A DNA stretch of 53,494 nucleotides from Bacillota bacterium. GTDB taxonomy: Bacteria; Bacillota; Limnochordia; DTU087. The position numbers and the translations under genes are program-made. Position 1 is the first letter of the stretch. Every line of letters begins with the position of its first letter. The stretch spans positions 1 to 53,494 of the forward strand of contig JAAYQZ010000033.1 of the NCBI GenBank assembly GCA_012519025.1. The letters are read 5' to 3'. Positions 42,402-53,269 of the stretch are shown here, in pieces. The notes beneath the pieces are model-generated. The model saw only the letters and a program-made list of their open reading frames with translations, ran no database searches and had not been told where the DNA came from.

Positions 42402-43262
42402 TTAAAATGAACCACCTAAAGATACCGGACCAAACAAAACCAAAAGCAGGCTGGGAAAAATAAAAAATATTAAAGGGAACAGCATTTGAACCGGTGCCCT
42501 GTTAGCCCTCGCCTCTGCTCGGTGTGCCTGGTTGAGCCGAATCTGTCGGGCAAGAAGAAGCAAAGTCGAATTAATGCTTGTTCCAAGCTCATCAGCCTGG
42601 ATCAATGTAGCGCAAACCGACCGCACATCCGGCTGCCGGCACCTGTCTGCCATGCTTCGCAGGGCATGTCTGCGACTTTCACCCATACGCATATGGTGGA
42701 GTACTTGATTAAACTCATCGATTAAGGGATTTGGTGGGCTTTTTTGAATCAGTACATTTATGGCTGCATCAAAAGTCAAACCGGCACCGGTACAGATCAC
42801 CAATAGGTCTAAAACACCGGGCAGTGCACGGCGAATAGCTGTCTCCCGCTGACTGGCTTTGTAACTCAACCAAAAATATGGCAGCCTGCTGAATAGATAG
42901 CTAGCCAACCCGGCCAATATTAAATTGCTCTCTAAAAATTGGATAGTGGCAAATCCACCGAAAGCCAACACCAAGCGCCACCCCCAAAGCTCTTGGCCTG
43001 ATAAATGCCGAGGGGTTCCCGCTAAGGCCAATTTCGTTTGGGTACGGTTTTTATATTTTGAACTGAGGAACTGCTGCCACAACCAACCACCTAAACCGGC
43101 CACCAAGCCCCTAAACACCAATATCGCCAGTTCCGTATTAGTGCCCTGAAAATTGCCGCCGGTGAATTCCCATTGAACAAGCCACAAAGATTCCATTTCA
43201 CTGTACCAAAGGCATAATGAAGCTAAAGTAAAACCAGCACAGATTAGGGATAAAATCACCAT
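42402..43262 (-). CDS. tadC: Tad pilus inner-membrane platform protein TadC
   Basis: TadC and TadB form the membrane platform on which the Flp pilus is built. The 286-residue product has N-terminal membrane segments, a cytoplasmic T2SSF domain (RALPGVLDLLVICTGAGLTF; VLHHMRMGESRRHALRSMAD), and ends with a hydrophobic anchor (MLFPLIFFIFPSLLLVLFGP). The ATG at 43262 has GAGG eight bases upstream; the GTG at 43271 lies in that site. It is the last gene of the Tad operon. Confidence 0.9.
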   Translation of the reverse strand: MVILSLICAGFTLASLCLWYSEMESLWLVQWEFTGGNFQGTNTELAILVFRGLVAGLGGWLWQQFLSSKYKNRTQTKLALAGTPRHLSGQELWGWRLVLAFGGFATIQFLESNLILAGLASYLFSRLPYFWLSYKASQRETAIRRALPGVLDLLVICTGAGLTFDAAINVLIQKSPPNPLIDEFNQVLHHMRMGESRRHALRSMADRCRQPDVRSVCATLIQADELGTSINSTLLLLARQIRLNQAHRAEARANRAPVQMLFPLIFFIFPSLLLVLFGPVSLGGSF

Positions 43263-43272
43263 TTCAATCACC

Positions 43273-44106
43273 TCACGCTTCCACGCGGCAGATTTTACTC
43301 ATTATCCAAATGCCTACTATTTCCAATGCTGAGGCTATTCCCAAAAGCACCTGACCAATGGGATTGAAAATCAACGGTTCGATAAAGCCCGGCATTATAA
43401 AGTAAATGATTATGCCAAGTGCCATAGGCAAAATGGCAATAATCATCCCTGTCAACCGTCCTTGAGATGTAACTGATTTGAGCTTTTCCCGCAAGTTAAT
43501 TTTACCCCGAATTGTTTCTCTTAAAGTTTCCAAGACAAGACCAAGATCGCCTCCCATTTCCCGCTGAATGGTGACAGCAGTAACCAGCTCCCCAAATGCT
43601 TCGTTGTTGACGGCTGTTCCTGCCCTTTGCCACGCCACATCCATGGGTACACCGAGCTGAACTTCTTTCGCTATGCGTCCCGCAATAAGGCAAAAAGGGG
43701 CATCAGCTTCCCTGGCTACTAATTCCAGCACCTGATACAAGTTAAACCCGGCCTGCAATCCGCCCTGCATCAGACTCAGACCATCAAGTAGTTGAGCTTC
43801 AAGCTTCACCGCCTGCCTGCGCGCTTGTATATTCGCCACAACCAAAGGCAGAATATAGGCCCCGATGCCCGCCATAAGACCAATTTGCAGGTTCTTAAAC
43901 ACCCCACCCATAATAAATCCGACTGCAGCCCGAGAGAATCCATGTCCCATACAGTGCTTGCCAAATTTAGCGACAATGTCCACTAGATCCTTTGAGCCTC
44001 GCTGTATAAAAACCCCGCCATAGGTTTGAAGCCCAAGAACAGAGCAAAACACTGCCAAAAATGATACTGTTTTAATAACATCTGGCAATAAATCTGCAAA
44101 CTGCAT
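43273..44106 (-). CDS. tadB: Tad pilus inner-membrane platform protein TadB
   Basis: TadB is the second T2SSF-type platform subunit. The 277-residue product has a hydrophobic N-terminus and a pair of membrane helices near residues 60-85. The T2SSF domain follows (LLDGLSLMQGGLQAGFNLYQ, LVTAVTIQREMGGDLGLVLE), with two C-terminal membrane segments (MIIAILPMALGIIIYFIMPG). The ATG at 44106 follows AAAGGATC. It is immediately downstream of the fused ATPase gene and upstream of tadC. Confidence 0.9.
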   Translation of the reverse strand: MQFADLLPDVIKTVSFLAVFCSVLGLQTYGGVFIQRGSKDLVDIVAKFGKHCMGHGFSRAAVGFIMGGVFKNLQIGLMAGIGAYILPLVVANIQARRQAVKLEAQLLDGLSLMQGGLQAGFNLYQVLELVAREADAPFCLIAGRIAKEVQLGVPMDVAWQRAGTAVNNEAFGELVTAVTIQREMGGDLGLVLETLRETIRGKINLREKLKSVTSQGRLTGMIIAILPMALGIIIYFIMPGFIEPLIFNPIGQVLLGIASALEIVGIWIMSKICRVEA

Positions 44107-44135
44107 CAAATGATCCTTTCGTTTGACCCCTTTAC

Positions 44136-46237: not shown

Positions 46238-49162
46238 CTATTCAATAGCTTTCTGTGTCGGCTGTAACGCGTCTGCCCACACAGGATCATCGTCCTGCAC
46301 CAACCTAGGACTTACTATAACGACTAGATCTGTCTGTTGGCCGCCTTGGACTTCACTGCGAAAGAGTGAACCCAAAATGGGCAGCTCCCCCAAAAATGGT
46401 ACCTGTTTTTGGCGGCGATGGTCTTCCTCCTGGATCAGACCACCTATAGCCAGTACTTTCCCCGGTGCAAGAGCGGCTTGTGTTTTCCACCTTCTGGTGA
46501 TTAACCCCGGTATGGTAGTATCCTCCATCTGTACGGCATTTTCCCAATCCAAAGAGCTCACTTCCGGTTCTATATGCATGTGGATGGTTCCATTTGGAAG
46601 TATTGTAGGCTGCACATTCAGACCTACCCCGTAAGGTTTCCAATCTATGCCGCCCTCTAATGGTACAGGTATTTCACCACCGGCTAAGAACTCCGCTTTT
46701 GCACCGTTCTCAGCCAATATTGACGGAGAAGCCAGCACTCGTGCAGCACCATTTTGCAGTAAACTGCGCAGTTCAACTTTAGCCCACAAAGGACCTAACA
46801 TCAGGCCAAAGGGATTTGGTGCCTGCCCGGGACCAACATCCAATCCCACCCCCTGTATCTGTACATATTGGGCTTCACCATTCTCTTCTTCCAAGCTCAT
46901 TTGCCACTCAAAACCCAGCTCCTTGATGGTGCTTTGAGATATTTCCAACATGCAAACATCCACCCAAATTTGCTCAATTGCTGGTTCCACCACAGTCAGG
47001 AGATTGTGAACAGGCACTTGCAAGATGGAAACAGCTTTTTCCGCCCGTTCGATCTCCTTTTCATGTTTTACAGTGCCCTGCAGCACTAAAACAGAACCAA
47101 CATATCGGCAGTGAACATTGGGGTTGTCCAACAAAAGCTTCACATCAGCTAATTCCGGCAGCGGTGCCGGTGTTTCGTAGATGCGCAACCTGTTCAGCCA
47201 ATCTGGAAACTCCCTATCCATCAGCTGAGTTAAATAAGCGGCATCTTCCGCAGAAACTGTGCCTTCCAGTACAGGACTCTGTCCCACTAGATATAATTTG
47301 ACACCATATTTTTCTGCTTCCTGGGTCAAGTGGGTCCAATCAGTTTCAGACTCATCTTCATTCTTTTGAAAGACATTCACTTCAATAAGATCAATGACTT
47401 CCCCAAAGGTCGAGGCAATGAGAGCAGCCTTGGTTTTATCTATGGTATGATCAACAATACCTTCTAAGATGATAAATCCGTTGATTACATTTACTTCAAT
47501 ACTGTCAATTGAGATGGTTTTTTGTATTTCTAAAGCAGACAGTTCTTTGGCTGCAGCCGCTTCGGTAGTCTTAATCACCATCCCGTCCACAACGGGGTAG
47601 CCAAAGGCGTTTGCTAAAGCTGCCGCTTTAACCTTTTGTGCTTCACAATCCACTTCACCTTGTAAAATAAGGGTGTTTTCCACCGCTGAAATCTGTAAAG
47701 TATCTGAGCCCAAAAGCCGGCTTATTTCGTCTAATACAGGCTGATTCAAGCCTATCTCATCGATCAAATCGACAACACTGTCAGCAAATTCATTGGCCAA
47801 TACTACTGCAGCTTTATGTTCTTTGGGAGGTAAGCCACCTTGTAAGATCAGGCTGTCACCGAGCCAACGCATTGAAAGTCCCGGGATTCCAATCAGTTTT
47901 TTAATGGTTTGGACTGGTTGTCTTTCCCCGTTCTGGTCTTCTTCGGTGTCCTCAAGCTGTATCAAATTGGAAATCCCGATACCAAGCGGTACGGCGTAAT
48001 CTGCGGCAATGTCATAGGCTAGATCTACAGTTTGAGTATTTTCCCCTAAGCCTTTAAGCACCAGGCGTTTCCCTATTTGCGCAACCTCTATATCACTCAA
48101 ACCCGGCAGTTCGCTGAGCGCCCCAGTCAGCTCATCTATACAAAGCTCGTCTTTTGGCACTTTCTCCACGGATTCTTCAACCGCCGGCAGATGCTTTCGC
48201 GTTATGTCGACATAGTAGACATCTACAGTCTGTAACAGCTCTTTTACTGCCATTGTTTGTTTTGGATCTTTTTCTGCACCTTCTAAAAGAAGAATTTCAC
48301 CAAGCCATCTTAAATCATAGCCCCATTCGCTGCAAAGCAGTTCGATATCTTTCAGCGAAACCAGCGGGCTTTTTTCAGCAGTGCCTGGTTTGGGTACAGT
48401 TTCATCGGCATCGGGCATATCTTTTTCAACCGGTTTGGTCTTAATTAAATTCAGGACTTTTGGGCTAAATTCTGCCGCAATTTGTTCGGCTTTTACCTGC
48501 TCTGCCTTTGATGATACCGTGCCCTCTAAAATGATGAGATCTTTGATAACCTGCACCGTTATCTCAGGTGAATTCAATGCTCTTTTCAGACTACCTAGGG
48601 ACACTGATGCATCTAATCTTGAAAAGCTATCTTGCTGACTATGTACCTGTATGAGATTAAGCACAGGTTCCCATATACTCTCAATTAGACCAATAATAGT
48701 GTCCTTATCATTTTCTGTACGGACGCTGCCTTCAACTACCAAGTATTCATGCCACCAATCAAAGCTTACGTCCCAATCTGCAAAAAGCTTCACCAGGTAA
48801 TTGAGATCCACAGGCGGTCGACTGGTGACAGTTATCTGGCTTGCGGCAGCACCTCTTTTCGTCCAGACAATCAGAGTTGTGCGTCCAGGCTCCATGCCCA
48901 CAAGTAAACACGCATCTTGGTCAAGAACTTTTACATCCGCAACTGTCGGGTCACCCACCGCGACCCTTGCAAGCCCTTCTATTTCCAGACAACGGCTTTC
49001 GCCAACATGGAGGGAAATATCTTCCCTGCTTTCTACAGATAAGTATGAAGCAACCGATTCCGCAAAAACAAAGCTTCCATGCAGACAAATCATTGCCCCT
49101 GTCAGTAATACTGCCAATGCGTATCCCGCGGCCCGTTCGCAAAATCGAAAAGCAAGCCCCAT
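46238..49162 (-). CDS. Tad secretin (CpaC/RcpA-like) with nine tandem BON-like modules
   Basis: Secretins form outer-membrane pores for pilus exit. The 974-residue product has a signal peptide (about residues 10-35). The pilus-assembly N-domain follows (about 40-115: ISLHVGESRCLEIEGLARVA, GDPTVADVKVL). Nine repeated modules then span about 120-725, each with a strand-turn such as LIILEG, LILQG or LVLQG (near 141, 209, 290, 367, 438, 498, 564, 630 and 692). The C-terminus is a full secretin domain (RVLASPSILAENGAKAEFLA, VGLNVQPTILPNGTIHMHI, VPFLGELPILGSLFRS). Ordinary CpaC proteins are roughly 450-550 residues, so this is nearly double. The start is ATG 49162, TTG 49165 or GTG 49174; the GTG overlaps the ribosome-binding site. 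Confidence 0.9.
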   Translation of the reverse strand: MGLAFRFCERAAGYALAVLLTGAMICLHGSFVFAESVASYLSVESREDISLHVGESRCLEIEGLARVAVGDPTVADVKVLDQDACLLVGMEPGRTTLIVWTKRGAAASQITVTSRPPVDLNYLVKLFADWDVSFDWWHEYLVVEGSVRTENDKDTIIGLIESIWEPVLNLIQVHSQQDSFSRLDASVSLGSLKRALNSPEITVQVIKDLIILEGTVSSKAEQVKAEQIAAEFSPKVLNLIKTKPVEKDMPDADETVPKPGTAEKSPLVSLKDIELLCSEWGYDLRWLGEILLLEGAEKDPKQTMAVKELLQTVDVYYVDITRKHLPAVEESVEKVPKDELCIDELTGALSELPGLSDIEVAQIGKRLVLKGLGENTQTVDLAYDIAADYAVPLGIGISNLIQLEDTEEDQNGERQPVQTIKKLIGIPGLSMRWLGDSLILQGGLPPKEHKAAVVLANEFADSVVDLIDEIGLNQPVLDEISRLLGSDTLQISAVENTLILQGEVDCEAQKVKAAALANAFGYPVVDGMVIKTTEAAAAKELSALEIQKTISIDSIEVNVINGFIILEGIVDHTIDKTKAALIASTFGEVIDLIEVNVFQKNEDESETDWTHLTQEAEKYGVKLYLVGQSPVLEGTVSAEDAAYLTQLMDREFPDWLNRLRIYETPAPLPELADVKLLLDNPNVHCRYVGSVLVLQGTVKHEKEIERAEKAVSILQVPVHNLLTVVEPAIEQIWVDVCMLEISQSTIKELGFEWQMSLEEENGEAQYVQIQGVGLDVGPGQAPNPFGLMLGPLWAKVELRSLLQNGAARVLASPSILAENGAKAEFLAGGEIPVPLEGGIDWKPYGVGLNVQPTILPNGTIHMHIEPEVSSLDWENAVQMEDTTIPGLITRRWKTQAALAPGKVLAIGGLIQEEDHRRQKQVPFLGELPILGSLFRSEVQGGQQTDLVVIVSPRLVQDDDPVWADALQPTQKAIE

Positions 49163-49179
49163 CAAACCCTTCACCCCCT

Positions 49180-49995
49180 CTATGACTCATCTGTTACAAA
49201 TGTTGATACTGTTCCTTTGATCACTTCAACTCGCCATATGGGTTCATTTGTCACGTCTTTTGCAATATGTACAGCAGTTTCAGGCGCTTCAAGCTCGGGC
49301 AGGTCAAGTAAATCCGCCGTAGCAAGGGGTCTAGTTTGCGCTGTCTTGCCCTTATCTGCTTCGGAAGATCTGATCAGAAGCTGCAGTGAACCACTGGTAT
49401 TAAACAAAGCAAGTCTTTTCGCCTCTTCGGGTGTTACCGCCAAAACAACTGTTTGCTTACCATGTGCTTCACCGTAAGGATCAGATTGAGCAGTCAGATC
49501 CAAAAGGGTAACTCCCTCCAAAACCAGTAAACTATGCTCTACACCGGATCGATAGTCAAGCAAAGTACCGAGAATATCGACCTGTGTGCCAACAATTAAT
49601 TCCTGTTCCAAACCGCTGACTCCGGCAAGGGATACCGCAAAAGCCCTTTGGTTTGGTTCCAACTGCCAAGCAATGCCCTGTTCTTCGGGATTTAAAAGTC
49701 TGTCTGCAATAATTACCTCCCCTGCAGTCAGTTCTATGGCACTGTGCTTCCCTTCAACACCCTGCAGTTCGCTCACAGCCCCGCGGGGGACCAGATGACT
49801 TGGAACAAGCCTTTCTTCAACCAGTCGCTGTTCTAATTCTGTGCCTTTTTCTACAGAACTTTTTGCCACCACCACACTGGTATGTTGACCTTTGCCGGCA
49901 ATCTCGTTCTCCAATTTTTCAATATACAGTCCCATTATAAGTGCACCTAAAACAGCGAACACAGCAGCTAATATAAGGTACCTGTGTCGAAACAT
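49180..49995 (-). CDS. cpaB: Tad pilus assembly protein CpaB/RcpC
   Basis: CpaB/RcpC is a periplasmic or membrane-anchored factor that works with the secretin. The 271-residue product has one N-terminal membrane segment (about residues 6-24) and a SAF domain (VVVAKSSVEKGTELEQRLVE, ELTAGEVIIADRLL). The family core follows (RAFAVSLAGVSGLEQELIVG, TQVDILGTLLDYR, VLAVTPEEAKRLALFNTSGS). The ATG follows GGTGATGGT. It sits next to the secretin as in other tad loci. Confidence 0.93.
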   Translation of the reverse strand: MFRHRYLILAAVFAVLGALIMGLYIEKLENEIAGKGQHTSVVVAKSSVEKGTELEQRLVEERLVPSHLVPRGAVSELQGVEGKHSAIELTAGEVIIADRLLNPEEQGIAWQLEPNQRAFAVSLAGVSGLEQELIVGTQVDILGTLLDYRSGVEHSLLVLEGVTLLDLTAQSDPYGEAHGKQTVVLAVTPEEAKRLALFNTSGSLQLLIRSSEADKGKTAQTRPLATADLLDLPELEAPETAVHIAKDVTNEPIWRVEVIKGTVSTFVTDES

Positions 49996-49999
49996 ACCA

Positions 50000-50818
50000 T
50001 CACCACTCCAGATTATAAGACTCTAGGATGGTATACTTTGTCTTCCCGCTTTTGGAATCAGGTGATATGACTATACCAAGCTGCCTGTCCCCCAGAAGAC
50101 TACCACCAAAGAACTCAAGACCAATTTGGTGGAATGCCCAACCGTTTGATTGTTCGTAATAATCTGCAACAGCCTGTGGAGAACATGATGTCTCGTACTC
50201 GAATATGTCCCAGTTGAATTGGTCTGTCTCAGAAAGTAAAATGCACGAGCATTGGGACCCGGGGACAGGACCCCAAGACAATTCAAGCGACAAATGCGGC
50301 TCTGGATCGTTCTTTTGTGGATTAGTTAAAAGCCCGACATAAACACTCGTACCCTCGATCCCAACAAACTGACCGTTACCATCCTGATCGAAAATATCCC
50401 CAGCAAACATTGCTCTTGCTTCCCAAGGTCCCTGATTCATCTGAATCTGCTCAGTAAAGGAAAAAGCTGCTAAAAACAAAAGCAGTTCGCGGGGGTCTGC
50501 TTCAAGGTAACTCGCCATTATCGGCCCAAACAGGTCTTGAATCTCCAGCATCAAATCATCGACTGCATCACCACTAGTGATATTTTCCCAACCCTGTTTG
50601 ACAAGCGCTGTTTTAACTTTGTTAACGTCGTCCATAAACAAACCCATTTCAACTGCAAACCATTGATCATTTTGCCAGATCCAGTTGACGTACGACATCT
50701 TGTCTTCCGCACCAAACAGCTCAGGGTGCCAAAATGCCACCGGACGCGCCCAGGCATAGGATGTAATGATGGCTATGCACATAAACGCTACAACGAGTGA
50801 TGTGAATTTTCTATTCAT
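50000..50818 (-). CDS. Secreted protein of unknown function inside the Tad locus
   Basis: I do not recognise this 272-residue protein. It has a signal peptide (about residues 6-24, ending near SYAWA). The mature part is acidic and rich in tryptophan and phenylalanine (HPELFGAEDKMSYVNWIWQN), with a DQDGNGQ calcium-loop-like segment near residue 150. C-terminal cysteines (CSC, then one more) could form a disulfide. The ATG at 50818 has GCAGGTAAG upstream, overlapping the stop of the TadE-like gene. Being between the pseudopilin genes and cpaB, it may be a pilus-associated or surface protein, but this is inference. Confidence 0.75.
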   Translation of the reverse strand: MNRKFTSLVVAFMCIAIITSYAWARPVAFWHPELFGAEDKMSYVNWIWQNDQWFAVEMGLFMDDVNKVKTALVKQGWENITSGDAVDDLMLEIQDLFGPIMASYLEADPRELLLFLAAFSFTEQIQMNQGPWEARAMFAGDIFDQDGNGQFVGIEGTSVYVGLLTNPQKNDPEPHLSLELSWGPVPGSQCSCILLSETDQFNWDIFEYETSCSPQAVADYYEQSNGWAFHQIGLEFFGGSLLGDRQLGIVISPDSKSGKTKYTILESYNLEW

Positions 50819-50822
50819 TTTC

Positions 50823-51278
50823 TTACCTGCTTTCATTCAATTTTCGTTTAAAGCTTCTTATATCATTCGCTGTGGGCAGCCGATTGAGGCTGAATATCTC
50901 CCGGGCAACTGTTAAAGAGGCCGTGACTGTAGGTTTCTTTTTGAGCCAGGCGGTGCCGGGTAAGAGCGGTGGATCAATTGAAATTTCAATGGTTTCATCA
51001 AAGAACGTGCTTTTCCATTGGACACACACCTCTTGTGCCTGCATAACCGGGTATCGCTGGAAATACCTGGCTATTTCCGCTTGTATTTGTTTCTTAGTTC
51101 TTCCCTGCCAATGCATTTCAACAGCATGTCTTACAGCCATGTGGGCCATTAAGTTTGTGCGGCATACTAAAGCCAACTGCATTATTCCCACTAATAGAAC
51201 CAACAGTAAGGGCATGACAACAACCAGTTCCAAAAGAGCTTGGCCTGCATCACAGCCTTCCCAAAGATACCTTTTCAA
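50823..51278 (-). CDS. TadE-like minor pseudopilin (first in gene order from secretin)
   Basis: TadE and TadF are pseudopilins processed by TadV. The 151-residue product has the TadE N-terminal pattern DAGQALLELVVVMPLLLVLL near residues 11-30: Gly, then Glu at about +5, then a hydrophobic helix. A moderately basic extracytoplasmic domain follows. The frame opens at 51293 with a TTG; the next TTG at 51278 has GGAGGGG six bases upstream and is preferred. It overlaps the start region of the unknown secreted gene. Confidence 0.82.
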   Translation of the reverse strand: MKRYLWEGCDAGQALLELVVVMPLLLVLLVGIMQLALVCRTNLMAHMAVRHAVEMHWQGRTKKQIQAEIARYFQRYPVMQAQEVCVQWKSTFFDETIEISIDPPLLPGTAWLKKKPTVTASLTVAREIFSLNRLPTANDIRSFKRKLNESR

Positions 51279-51305
51279 AACAGGCCCCTCCAACTAATAA
51301 AGTGC

Positions 51306-52025
51306 TCACCATGGCTTCGCGTCTAAGTAATCCTGGATCAATTTTCGGGGATCTTCCCGGACTTTACCTAACTTCCCCTTGAAATTGGGTATGGCAAGAC
51401 CCCAACCACTGACTGATCCCTCTGCCGCCGCACCCACATAAGGCATACTCCGCAGCAGCTCCCTTGAAAAAGGCTCCCTGATCAAGTCAGGTACTTTCGG
51501 TGAAAGTGCGGTACCTACCCTCACATACCTGCGTCCGATTCGACCCGGTCTAAGCCGGTCGTGAAACAATTTAGGTGAAAACGGTATGGTAATACCTAAA
51601 AAGTCTGGTTGTCTGTAATCGACTTCCAAATTCGGCATATTGGTTGGTACTGCAACAACACCATTTTTCCAGCCAATTTCTACAATCCGGGCAGTCGCAA
51701 AGGCCGGAGCACCATGTCTGCACACTGTTGTTGCACCGGATACTGCAGTGCGCAAAGCGGACCCAAGGCTCCGTGATAGATAGGAAGAGGTTTTTATCCA
51801 ATTACTGAGCGTTAAAATGTCCAGCACATCGGCTAAAGCGCCAGAACCTGCGACCGCGGCCGCGTCAGCTGCATTTTGCGCCTGAATTTTGGCAGTAAGA
51901 TATGAAGAGGTTATGTAAAGCCCACATGCAAAGGCCATAATCATGCTGGTCGCGATCAGCAAGAACACTGCTGCCTGGCCTTCATCCCCCACAAACAGCT
52001 GTGCAGAGAGCAAACCCTTTTTCAT
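51306..52025 (-). CDS. TadG-like pilus assembly protein, short form
   Basis: The 239-residue product begins like TadG proteins: GDEGQAAVFLLIATSMIMAF, then ITSSYLTAKIQAQNAADAAA, giving one membrane helix with a pilin-like start. Full TadG proteins usually carry a C-terminal von Willebrand A domain and are 400 residues or longer; none is present here, so this is a short form. Its ATG overlaps the stop of the upstream TadE gene (ATGA), indicating coupling. Confidence 0.78.
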   Translation of the reverse strand: MKKGLLSAQLFVGDEGQAAVFLLIATSMIMAFACGLYITSSYLTAKIQAQNAADAAAVAGSGALADVLDILTLSNWIKTSSYLSRSLGSALRTAVSGATTVCRHGAPAFATARIVEIGWKNGVVAVPTNMPNLEVDYRQPDFLGITIPFSPKLFHDRLRPGRIGRRYVRVGTALSPKVPDLIREPFSRELLRSMPYVGAAAEGSVSGWGLAIPNFKGKLGKVREDPRKLIQDYLDAKPW

Positions 52026-52429
52026 CTGCTTATCCCACCCAAGCCATAGACTATTTTCTGCTCCTTAAACAGTGATACTTGACCACCAAACCACGGACTG
52101 ATTTTATCGAGAAACGATATCTCTTTTGTAATTTCTACATCCACCCCATTTGATCTTTTGGTAACTGAAAGGTTCCCGCCAGTCATCCCCATTAGCCCTT
52201 CCAACAGCCAAATCGCCTCTTTTCGGCTTGTTGCCAAAAATTGTCTTGCCCGATCAGCACCGGCTTGTTCAGTTTCCAATAATGCGACCCGGGCGGCATT
52301 ATAAGCAGCAAAATGAAGCATCTCTGACTCAATCATGTGCATCGCAAAAGCCAACAAACCCCATATCCCGATAAACAACACAGGCAAAACAATGGCAAAC
52401 TCCAAGAGTGCTGTCCCGTGTTCATCCAT
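52022..52429 (-). CDS. tadE: TadE-like minor pseudopilin
   Basis: The 135-residue product starts with the TadE pattern MDEHGTALLEFAIVLPVLFI: Gly-Thr-Ala-Leu-Leu-Glu gives Glu at +5 after the glycine, then a membrane helix (IGIWGLLAFAMHM). The rest is a small soluble domain. AGGAGGGTGA lies ahead of the ATG. It is downstream of cpaA and overlaps the TadG-like gene. Confidence 0.87.
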   Translation of the reverse strand: MDEHGTALLEFAIVLPVLFIGIWGLLAFAMHMIESEMLHFAAYNAARVALLETEQAGADRARQFLATSRKEAIWLLEGLMGMTGGNLSVTKRSNGVDVEITKEISFLDKISPWFGGQVSLFKEQKIVYGLGGISR

Positions 52430-52464: not shown

Positions 52465-52941
52465 TTACTGATAAAGCCCACTTAAGATATGGTTGAAAAT
52501 CACTCCCACAGCATATAGTGCGCCGTATGGGACCCAAATCACGGGTTTCTCCTTTGCAGTTTTGAAAGATAACCTGCGAGTTTTGAGCAATTGATACATT
52601 GAATACAAACCAGCAACAAGGATTCCCATAAAGAACGCAGGGAAAGCATCACGGGGACCCAATATTAAGGCAACTGCTGCCACCAATTTCACATCACCGC
52701 CACCGATTTGCCCTTTTTGAAAGCCCAGCACCAAAGGCAAAGCCAATAGAATTGCTACCCATACAGCATGTAACAAAATACCGAAGCCGCTGACAAGGTG
52801 AATCACAACTGCCGCCGAGGAGCTCAACACAATTAACCAGTTGGGAATGATTCGAAATCGCAAGTCATAGTAGATCGAGCACCCCAAAGCCGCAAACAAA
52901 ACGAAGCTTTGCACATTTTCAAACCATACTACCGATTCCAT
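52465..52941 (-). CDS. cpaA: Prepilin peptidase CpaA/TadV
   Basis: CpaA/TadV is the aspartic protease that cleaves Flp and TadE/TadF prepilins at the membrane. The 158-residue product has five or six hydrophobic segments. The two catalytic aspartates are in YYDLRFRIIPNW near residue 26 and in the GxGD motif GGGDVKLVAAVALILG near residue 82. The ATG at 52941 has GGGGG five bases upstream; a longer frame to 53028 is unlikely. It follows flp, separated by two hairpins. Confidence 0.94.
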   Translation of the reverse strand: MESVVWFENVQSFVLFAALGCSIYYDLRFRIIPNWLIVLSSSAAVVIHLVSGFGILLHAVWVAILLALPLVLGFQKGQIGGGDVKLVAAVALILGPRDAFPAFFMGILVAGLYSMYQLLKTRRLSFKTAKEKPVIWVPYGALYAVGVIFNHILSGLYQ

Positions 52942-52978
52942 AACTACCCCCTTTATTGAGCGTTTGGCGATAGAAAGG

Positions 52979-53028
52979 GCTGCCCCATTGCCTTTATCGC
53001 AAAGGGGCAGCGTGCCCGCAAGGGGCAC
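52979..53028 (-). repeat. Two adjacent hairpins between flp and cpaA
   Basis: GTGCCC/GGGCAC (53028-53012, five-base loop) is followed directly by GCTGCCCC/GGGGCAGC (53011-52979, 17-base loop). Neither has a following T tract. They lie downstream of the flp stop and upstream of cpaA, where RNA processing or partial termination could raise pilin mRNA over the assembly genes. Confidence 0.7.
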
Positions 53029-53089: not shown

Positions 53090-53269
53090 TTATTTTGCTG
53101 TAACGCCTTGTAATGATGTATTTAGATCCTGAAATTTCTCTTTAAGAGTCTCTCCCAGAGTCTTCACCGCCACCAAGGCAGCAATGGCAATTAACGCTGT
53201 CAACAATCCGTATTCAGCCATGCCCTGACCTGTTTGGTCCGTCCATAGCTGGGAGAGGATCTGACCCAT
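53090..53269 (-). CDS. flp: Flp-type pilin
   Basis: Flp is the main structural subunit of Tad pili. The 59-residue product reads GQILSQLWTDQTGQGMAEYG then LLTALIAIAALVAVK. Cleavage is predicted after Gly14 to leave Gln at +1 and the conserved Glu at +5 followed by Tyr, the Flp motif. The hydrophobic stretch covers residues 20-36. AGGAGGG lies six bases before the ATG. It is below the usual ORF size cut-off and is supported by motif, ribosome-binding site and locus. Confidence 0.93.
   Translation of the reverse strand: MGQILSQLWTDQTGQGMAEYGLLTALIAIAALVAVKTLGETLKEKFQDLNTSLQGVTAK

Follow-up and report, generated by a model that had tools for sequence, protein, structure and literature searches.

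Tad secretins usually carry at most one or two modules between their pil_N domain and their secretin domain, and the secretin encoded in the window (the whole stretch of 53,494 nucleotides analysed in this study) carries nine, which raises the question of what these modules are, where they came from and what a periplasmic part of such length may do. Among the studied Tad secretins, RcpA of Pseudomonas aeruginosa (8ODN), the closest solved relative by sequence, has no module between the N-domain and the secretin domain (PMC10499894), and CpaC of Caulobacter crescentus has one N3 domain (PMC13170226). Both share with the window protein the pil_N/VirB9-like N-domain, the secretin domain and a tad neighbourhood with RcpC/CpaB, CpaE, CpaF, TadB, TadC and Flp. 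Thus, a length like that of the window protein is not standard in well-studied Tad secretins. In this study, we found that the protein belongs to the previously known Tad type, and that its novelty lies in the module number.

The assignment as a Tad secretin (CpaC/RcpA) is based on the pil_N match (PF13629, T2SS-T3SS_pil_N; residues 51-116, E 7.1e-17 in the Pfam search), the secretin domain and the tad locus around the gene (Table 1). Nine modules break the size norm of the type and not a defining trait, and membership therefore stands, as a variant. GspD of type II secretion was rejected (TIGR02517, 119 bits against a cut-off of 351; no PF03958 Secretin_N match), as were PilQ of type IVa pili (TIGR02515, 95 bits against a cut-off of 284) and a frame or assembly artefact, since the same ORF is carried by independent genomes. 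The ORF starts at a GTG at 49174; the alternative ATG at 49162, chosen in the preliminary description, gives a protein four residues shorter. On the minus strand, the gene order runs from two pilin-like genes at the contig end through the prepilin peptidase, TadE, TadG, TadE, a secreted protein, RcpC/CpaB, the secretin, CpaE-CpaF and TadB to TadC, and this is a complete Tad/Flp pilus locus. CpaE and CpaF are fused in every family locus covering the gene, as well as in G011 (L128) and G014 (L140), and unfused in the family's second Tad system and in other clades. The secreted 278-aa protein between TadE and RcpC (50000-50836, minus strand) has no Pfam match and is syntenic in several relatives, just 20-24% identical where detected; it is a fast-evolving candidate tip, adhesin or pilotin.

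Table 1. Features of the secretin and of the tad locus in the window
Feature	Positions	Strand	Basis and remarks
Tad secretin (CpaC/RcpA type)	46238..49174	-	ORF, 978 aa; PF00263, PF13629, PF04972
pil_N (VirB9-like beta-sandwich) domain, residues 47-117	48824..49036	-	PF13629; seven strands in AlphaFold2 model
BON-like module M1, residues 118-180	48635..48823	-	hhalign; alpha-beta-beta-alpha-beta in model
BON-like module M2, residues 186-248	48431..48619	-	Pfam, hhalign, model; best Pfam BON match
BON-like module M3, residues 272-330	48185..48361	-	hhalign, model; missing in relative G003
BON-like module M4, residues 340-412	47939..48157	-	hhalign, model; diverged
BON-like module M5, residues 415-475	47750..47932	-	hhalign, both models
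BON-like module M6, residues 473-541	47552..47758	-	hhalign, both models
BON-like module M7, residues 544-603	47366..47545	-	hhalign, both models
BON-like module M8, residues 608-668	47171..47353	-	hhalign, both models; most diverged
BON-like module M9, residues 670-730	46985..47167	-	hhalign, both models; adjoins secretin domain
Secretin domain (outer-membrane double barrel), residues 806-959	46298..46759	-	PF00263, 1.3e-40
RcpC/CpaB, periplasmic alignment-complex protein, 271 aa, ordinary length	49180..49995	-	TIGR03177, 9e-34, over cut-off; PF16976
Fused CpaE (ParA/MinD-like)-CpaF/TadA ATPase, 696 aa	44136..46226	-	PF01656/PF13614, PF00437
TadB platform protein	43273..44109	-	Position and conservation in all Tad loci compared
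TadC platform protein	42402..43271	-	Position and conservation in all Tad loci compared
TadE-like pseudopilin	50823..51293	-	PF07811
TadG-like protein	51306..52025	-	PF13400
TadE-like pseudopilin	52022..52429	-	PF07811
TadV/CpaA prepilin peptidase	52465..53028	-	PF01478
Flp pilin	53090..53269	-	PF04964

The preliminary description had noted a core strand L-I-L-x-G repeated nine times. All nine positions were found after the four-residue shift of the start, and the actual motif is looser: LVVEG at 145, IILEG at 214, LLLEG at 295, LVLKG at 371, LILQG at 442 and 502, IILEG at 568, PVLEG at 634 and LVLQG at 696 (numbered from the GTG). When nine module sub-alignments cut from ten family members were compared with hhalign in all 36 pairs, 33 pairs exceeded the 99th percentile of 288 column-shuffled comparisons, and the top-scoring pair, M2-M7, reached 87 against a shuffled maximum of 18.5; chance repeats are thus ruled out by the shuffled controls. 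M1, M2, M3, M5, M6, M7 and M9 are strongly related, and the assignment of the most diverged, M4 and M8, is weakly supported by sequence and leans on their predicted fold. The whole protein scored 66 bits with the Pfam BON model PF04972 (cut-off 27, E 3.6e-18), with two to three single stretches passing. In an AlphaFold2 model built from the ten-sequence alignment, all nine modules show the alpha-beta-beta-alpha-beta fold with pLDDT of ~70-85, preceded by the seven-stranded sandwich, and a separate model of M5-M9 agrees on the fold. These are monomer models with pTM of 0.26 and 0.30, which do not fix the relative placement of the modules. Foldseek matched the module segment to YscD, CdsD, OsmY, DolP and T3SS inner rings, and the full model to secretins on top, followed by the same BON proteins. 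YscD/CdsD/PrgH/EscD of type III secretion, the top matches of the module region, likewise have a chain of BON-like ring-building modules, but they are inner-membrane ring proteins with at most three modules and without a secretin domain. DolP, OsmY and BonA, dual-BON lipoproteins or periplasmic proteins, share the same module but have one or two copies and act outside export machines. Judged by profile comparison and predicted fold, the nine modules (residues ~118-730 in all) are homologous to each other and BON-like, as had been proposed.

Orthologues 43-53% identical to the window secretin over nearly its full length retain this architecture. Nine modules were counted in nine of ten family orthologues, with conserved length. 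The module profile was trained on window-family proteins, which partly builds in the counts there; with the Pfam BON model, which is independent of it, ten stretches pass in a 12-module relative and fewer in the other proteins. The exception is G003 (G003:C187, L137:9001-11790), an otherwise colinear orthologue with M3 deleted, and the exact module number is thus not essential. Nine family genomes also contain a second Tad system, whose secretin is not closely related to that of the window; eight modules are recognised in it, beside two stretches left unassigned. In complete genes (those of G002 and G005 are split over contigs), its N-domain-to-secretin length is 650-703 residues, compared with 609-633 in the nine-module family.

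The same architecture with other copy numbers is found in other clades of this diderm Bacillota class, which have 7, 8 (plus gaps) or 12 modules, with 1-3 in some members, and in other Bacillota classes, where one, two or four modules were found. Outside Bacillota, almost all CpaC loci have one slot of 60-70 residues, with two slots in two Myxococcota loci and three in one Omnitrophota locus, and the earlier view of one or two such domains as the usual number in CpaC/RcpA proteins thus holds. In a secretin-domain tree, the 9-, 8-, 7- and 12-module proteins form separate well-supported clades whose deep order is unresolved. The pil_N domain is retained at the far end of every complete multi-module protein. 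In two loci (L126:7593-8513, minus strand; L296:3102-4049, plus strand), an additional gene with pil_N and two BON modules and without a secretin domain lies directly before the Tad secretin gene; its product is possibly an extra tube segment (compare CpaI in Caulobacter). The open-access literature searched yielded no paper on multi-BON secretins, although one may still exist.

Position-specific profiles give some indication of how the extra modules arose. In the clades B8, C7 and D12, it is the last module that ranks first or near first in similarity to the single proteobacterial CpaC module, and modules 4/6/8 and 5/7/9 of the 12-module clade follow each other in alternation. Together, these imply growth by insertion and duplication between pil_N and an ancestral membrane-proximal module, and, as read from the alternating profiles, the 12-module clade grew by repeated duplication of a two-module unit. 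In the window family, another module than the last is nearest to that of CpaC, and the order of descent is less clear.

The host has an outer membrane. Published statements on diderm Limnochordia (PMC11456536), taken with genome features, suggest that its class is Limnochordia-like. BamA was found in 30 of 31 genomes tested, including that of the window (Omp85, E 1.2e-57), and the genome encodes proteins combining SLH, a stalk and a TM or barrel segment; BamA and these outer-membrane tethers rule out a monoderm host. OmpM-like genes were not found beside bamA with a simple pattern, and were located elsewhere in the genomes with Pfam SLH. One of the tethers of the window's genome is Omp-alpha-like (G000:C133, L258), with SLH, a proline-free stalk of 426 residues (at most 63 nm if fully helical) and a C-terminal TM helix; another is SlpA/OmpM-like (L241), with a stalk of ~380 residues. 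Coiled-coil outer-membrane tethers report the membrane-to-wall distance, as in Deinococcus SlpA with a 28-nm coil and a 30-nm gap; for the Omp-alpha of Thermotoga, a length of 45 nm is predicted (PMC9388160). The long spacer stalks therefore make a wide envelope likely in the window's bacterium.

We consider it probable that the window protein is the secretin of a Tad pilus whose ten periplasmic domains are stacked as rings into a conduit that crosses a wide periplasm. By analogy with the stacked N-rings of other secretins, the secretin domains of some 12-14 subunits would make up the outer-membrane barrel; underneath, each BON-like module would associate laterally with its counterparts in the neighbouring subunits, giving nine stacked rings, and the pil_N domain would form a tenth ring. 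This domain is the predicted inner-membrane-side end and would dock on the RcpC/CpaB dodecamer, as in Pseudomonas, where the RcpC dodecamer is bound by the N-domain of RcpA, whose periplasmic part is not long enough to span the periplasm alone (PMC12307814). The pilus would be enclosed all around by a conduit several times the length of that in Pseudomonas or Caulobacter, and Flp pili could traverse a wide periplasm while RcpC keeps its ordinary size. RcpC length offsetting module number was considered and dropped, as ORF sizes compared by eye show no trend. In Caulobacter, the Tad machine works with a single N3 domain in a periplasm of 29-33 nm (PMC13170226). The PilQ of Thermus thermophilus offers a precedent, since its N-domain rings are stacked to an unusual length where the periplasm is very wide, with six rings over 350 A and a periplasm of ~70 nm (PMC5745081, PMC4463427), but it is of type IVa, with N0 and N1-N5 of beta-alpha-beta-beta-alpha fold and without pil_N or BON, and has six rings compared with the ten domains of the putative stack here. 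Scaled from this 35-nm six-ring PilQ at ~2.5-4 nm per ring, nine module rings, the N-domain ring and the barrel would measure ~38-50 nm. The stacked conduit is favoured because the fold matches the ring-forming T3SS proteins YscD/CdsD/PrgH and secretins, and because the module count is conserved in the family and the second Tad secretin is of similar periplasmic length. It is weakened by relatives with 1-3 modules and longer spacers, by the short other secretin of the genome, by the undefined inter-module orientation in the monomer models and by the weak sequence scores of M4 and M8. For the long periplasmic tube of the preliminary description, the nine homologous modules are supported, and stacking is the best reading of them.

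Alternatively, only the one or two membrane-proximal modules may form rings, the rest being flexible arms that anchor the machine by binding to phospholipid, peptidoglycan or envelope proteins. Phospholipid binding is known from the BON domains of DolP (PMC7806268), and the unfixed inter-module orientation, the divergence of M4 and M8 and the linkers of 12-25 residues between some modules in the model would all suit such arms. However, the structural matches include ring-forming T3SS proteins besides DolP and OsmY, the modules are regularly spaced (55-79 residues here, 59-71 in the 12-module relative), and every complete multi-module protein retains, at its far end, the domain that in Pseudomonas binds RcpC close to the inner membrane. 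We regard flexible arms as unlikely.

Somewhat less likely still is that module number is a strict molecular ruler, set by the distance from outer to inner membrane in step with the coiled-coil spacers. Omp-alpha stalks have 339-369 residues in the seven-module clade, 414-431 in the nine-module clade and 399 in the twelve-module clade, all far above the ~50 residues of the Veillonella OmpM1 stalk (PMC10628300). However, the step from nine to twelve modules runs against stalk length, the independent clades are few, and the longest spacers are found in families with 1-3 Tad modules (a stalk of > 561 residues in G014; frames of 1447 and 1490 aa in G028 and G031), which are counter-examples to a universal rule and suggest that the periplasm of these families is extremely wide. 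Across the class, module number does not track spacer length; as a general rule, the envelope ruler is contradicted by families f5 and f11, and the data do not establish that module number follows envelope width in the manner of a ruler. The spacers of exceptional size are G028:C99 (L245), G028:C15, G031:C130 (L272) and G014:C17 (L244), with frames of 1386 and 1837 aa for the SLH + stalk + barrel type and of 1447 and 1490 aa for the Omp-alpha-like type. The other secretin of the window's genome (G000:C86, L186:1098-2354) is a protein of 419 aa with STN, Secretin_N and Secretin domains, and thus with short N domains only; its gene lies outside any recognisable T4P or T2SS cluster. The proposal of an unusually wide envelope, which came with the preliminary description, therefore draws support from the two long stalks of this genome and is tempered by the longer spacers of 1-3-module relatives and by this short secretin.

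Neutral expansion, in which tandem duplication raised a module number that cells merely tolerate, would fit the duplicated two-module unit, the module lost in G003 and the lack of a trend with spacer length, but it is improbable, because each well-supported clade keeps to one number, even the window family with its low identity, because the two Tad secretins that occur together in cells of the family are similar in periplasmic length without being closely related, and because the modules keep conserved cores.

Beyond the window protein, it is tempting to speculate, with rather less confidence than in the conduit itself, that the Tad secretin of this class is a modular periplasmic tube to which internal duplication adds rings in the course of evolution, adapting it to exceptionally wide envelopes; it might then provide the longest secretin conduits known, with ten domains here and thirteen where there are 12 modules, and a natural series for asking what sets the length of trans-envelope machines. 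Close relatives with 1, 3, 7, 8, 9 and 12 modules form a series in which what sets the length of a pilus channel, be it envelope width, docking on RcpC or another factor, can be tested. A family of nine- to twelve-module proteins would demonstrate that a secretin can grow longer through the stepwise addition of modules, in a lineage that is central to the debate on outer-membrane loss in Firmicutes.
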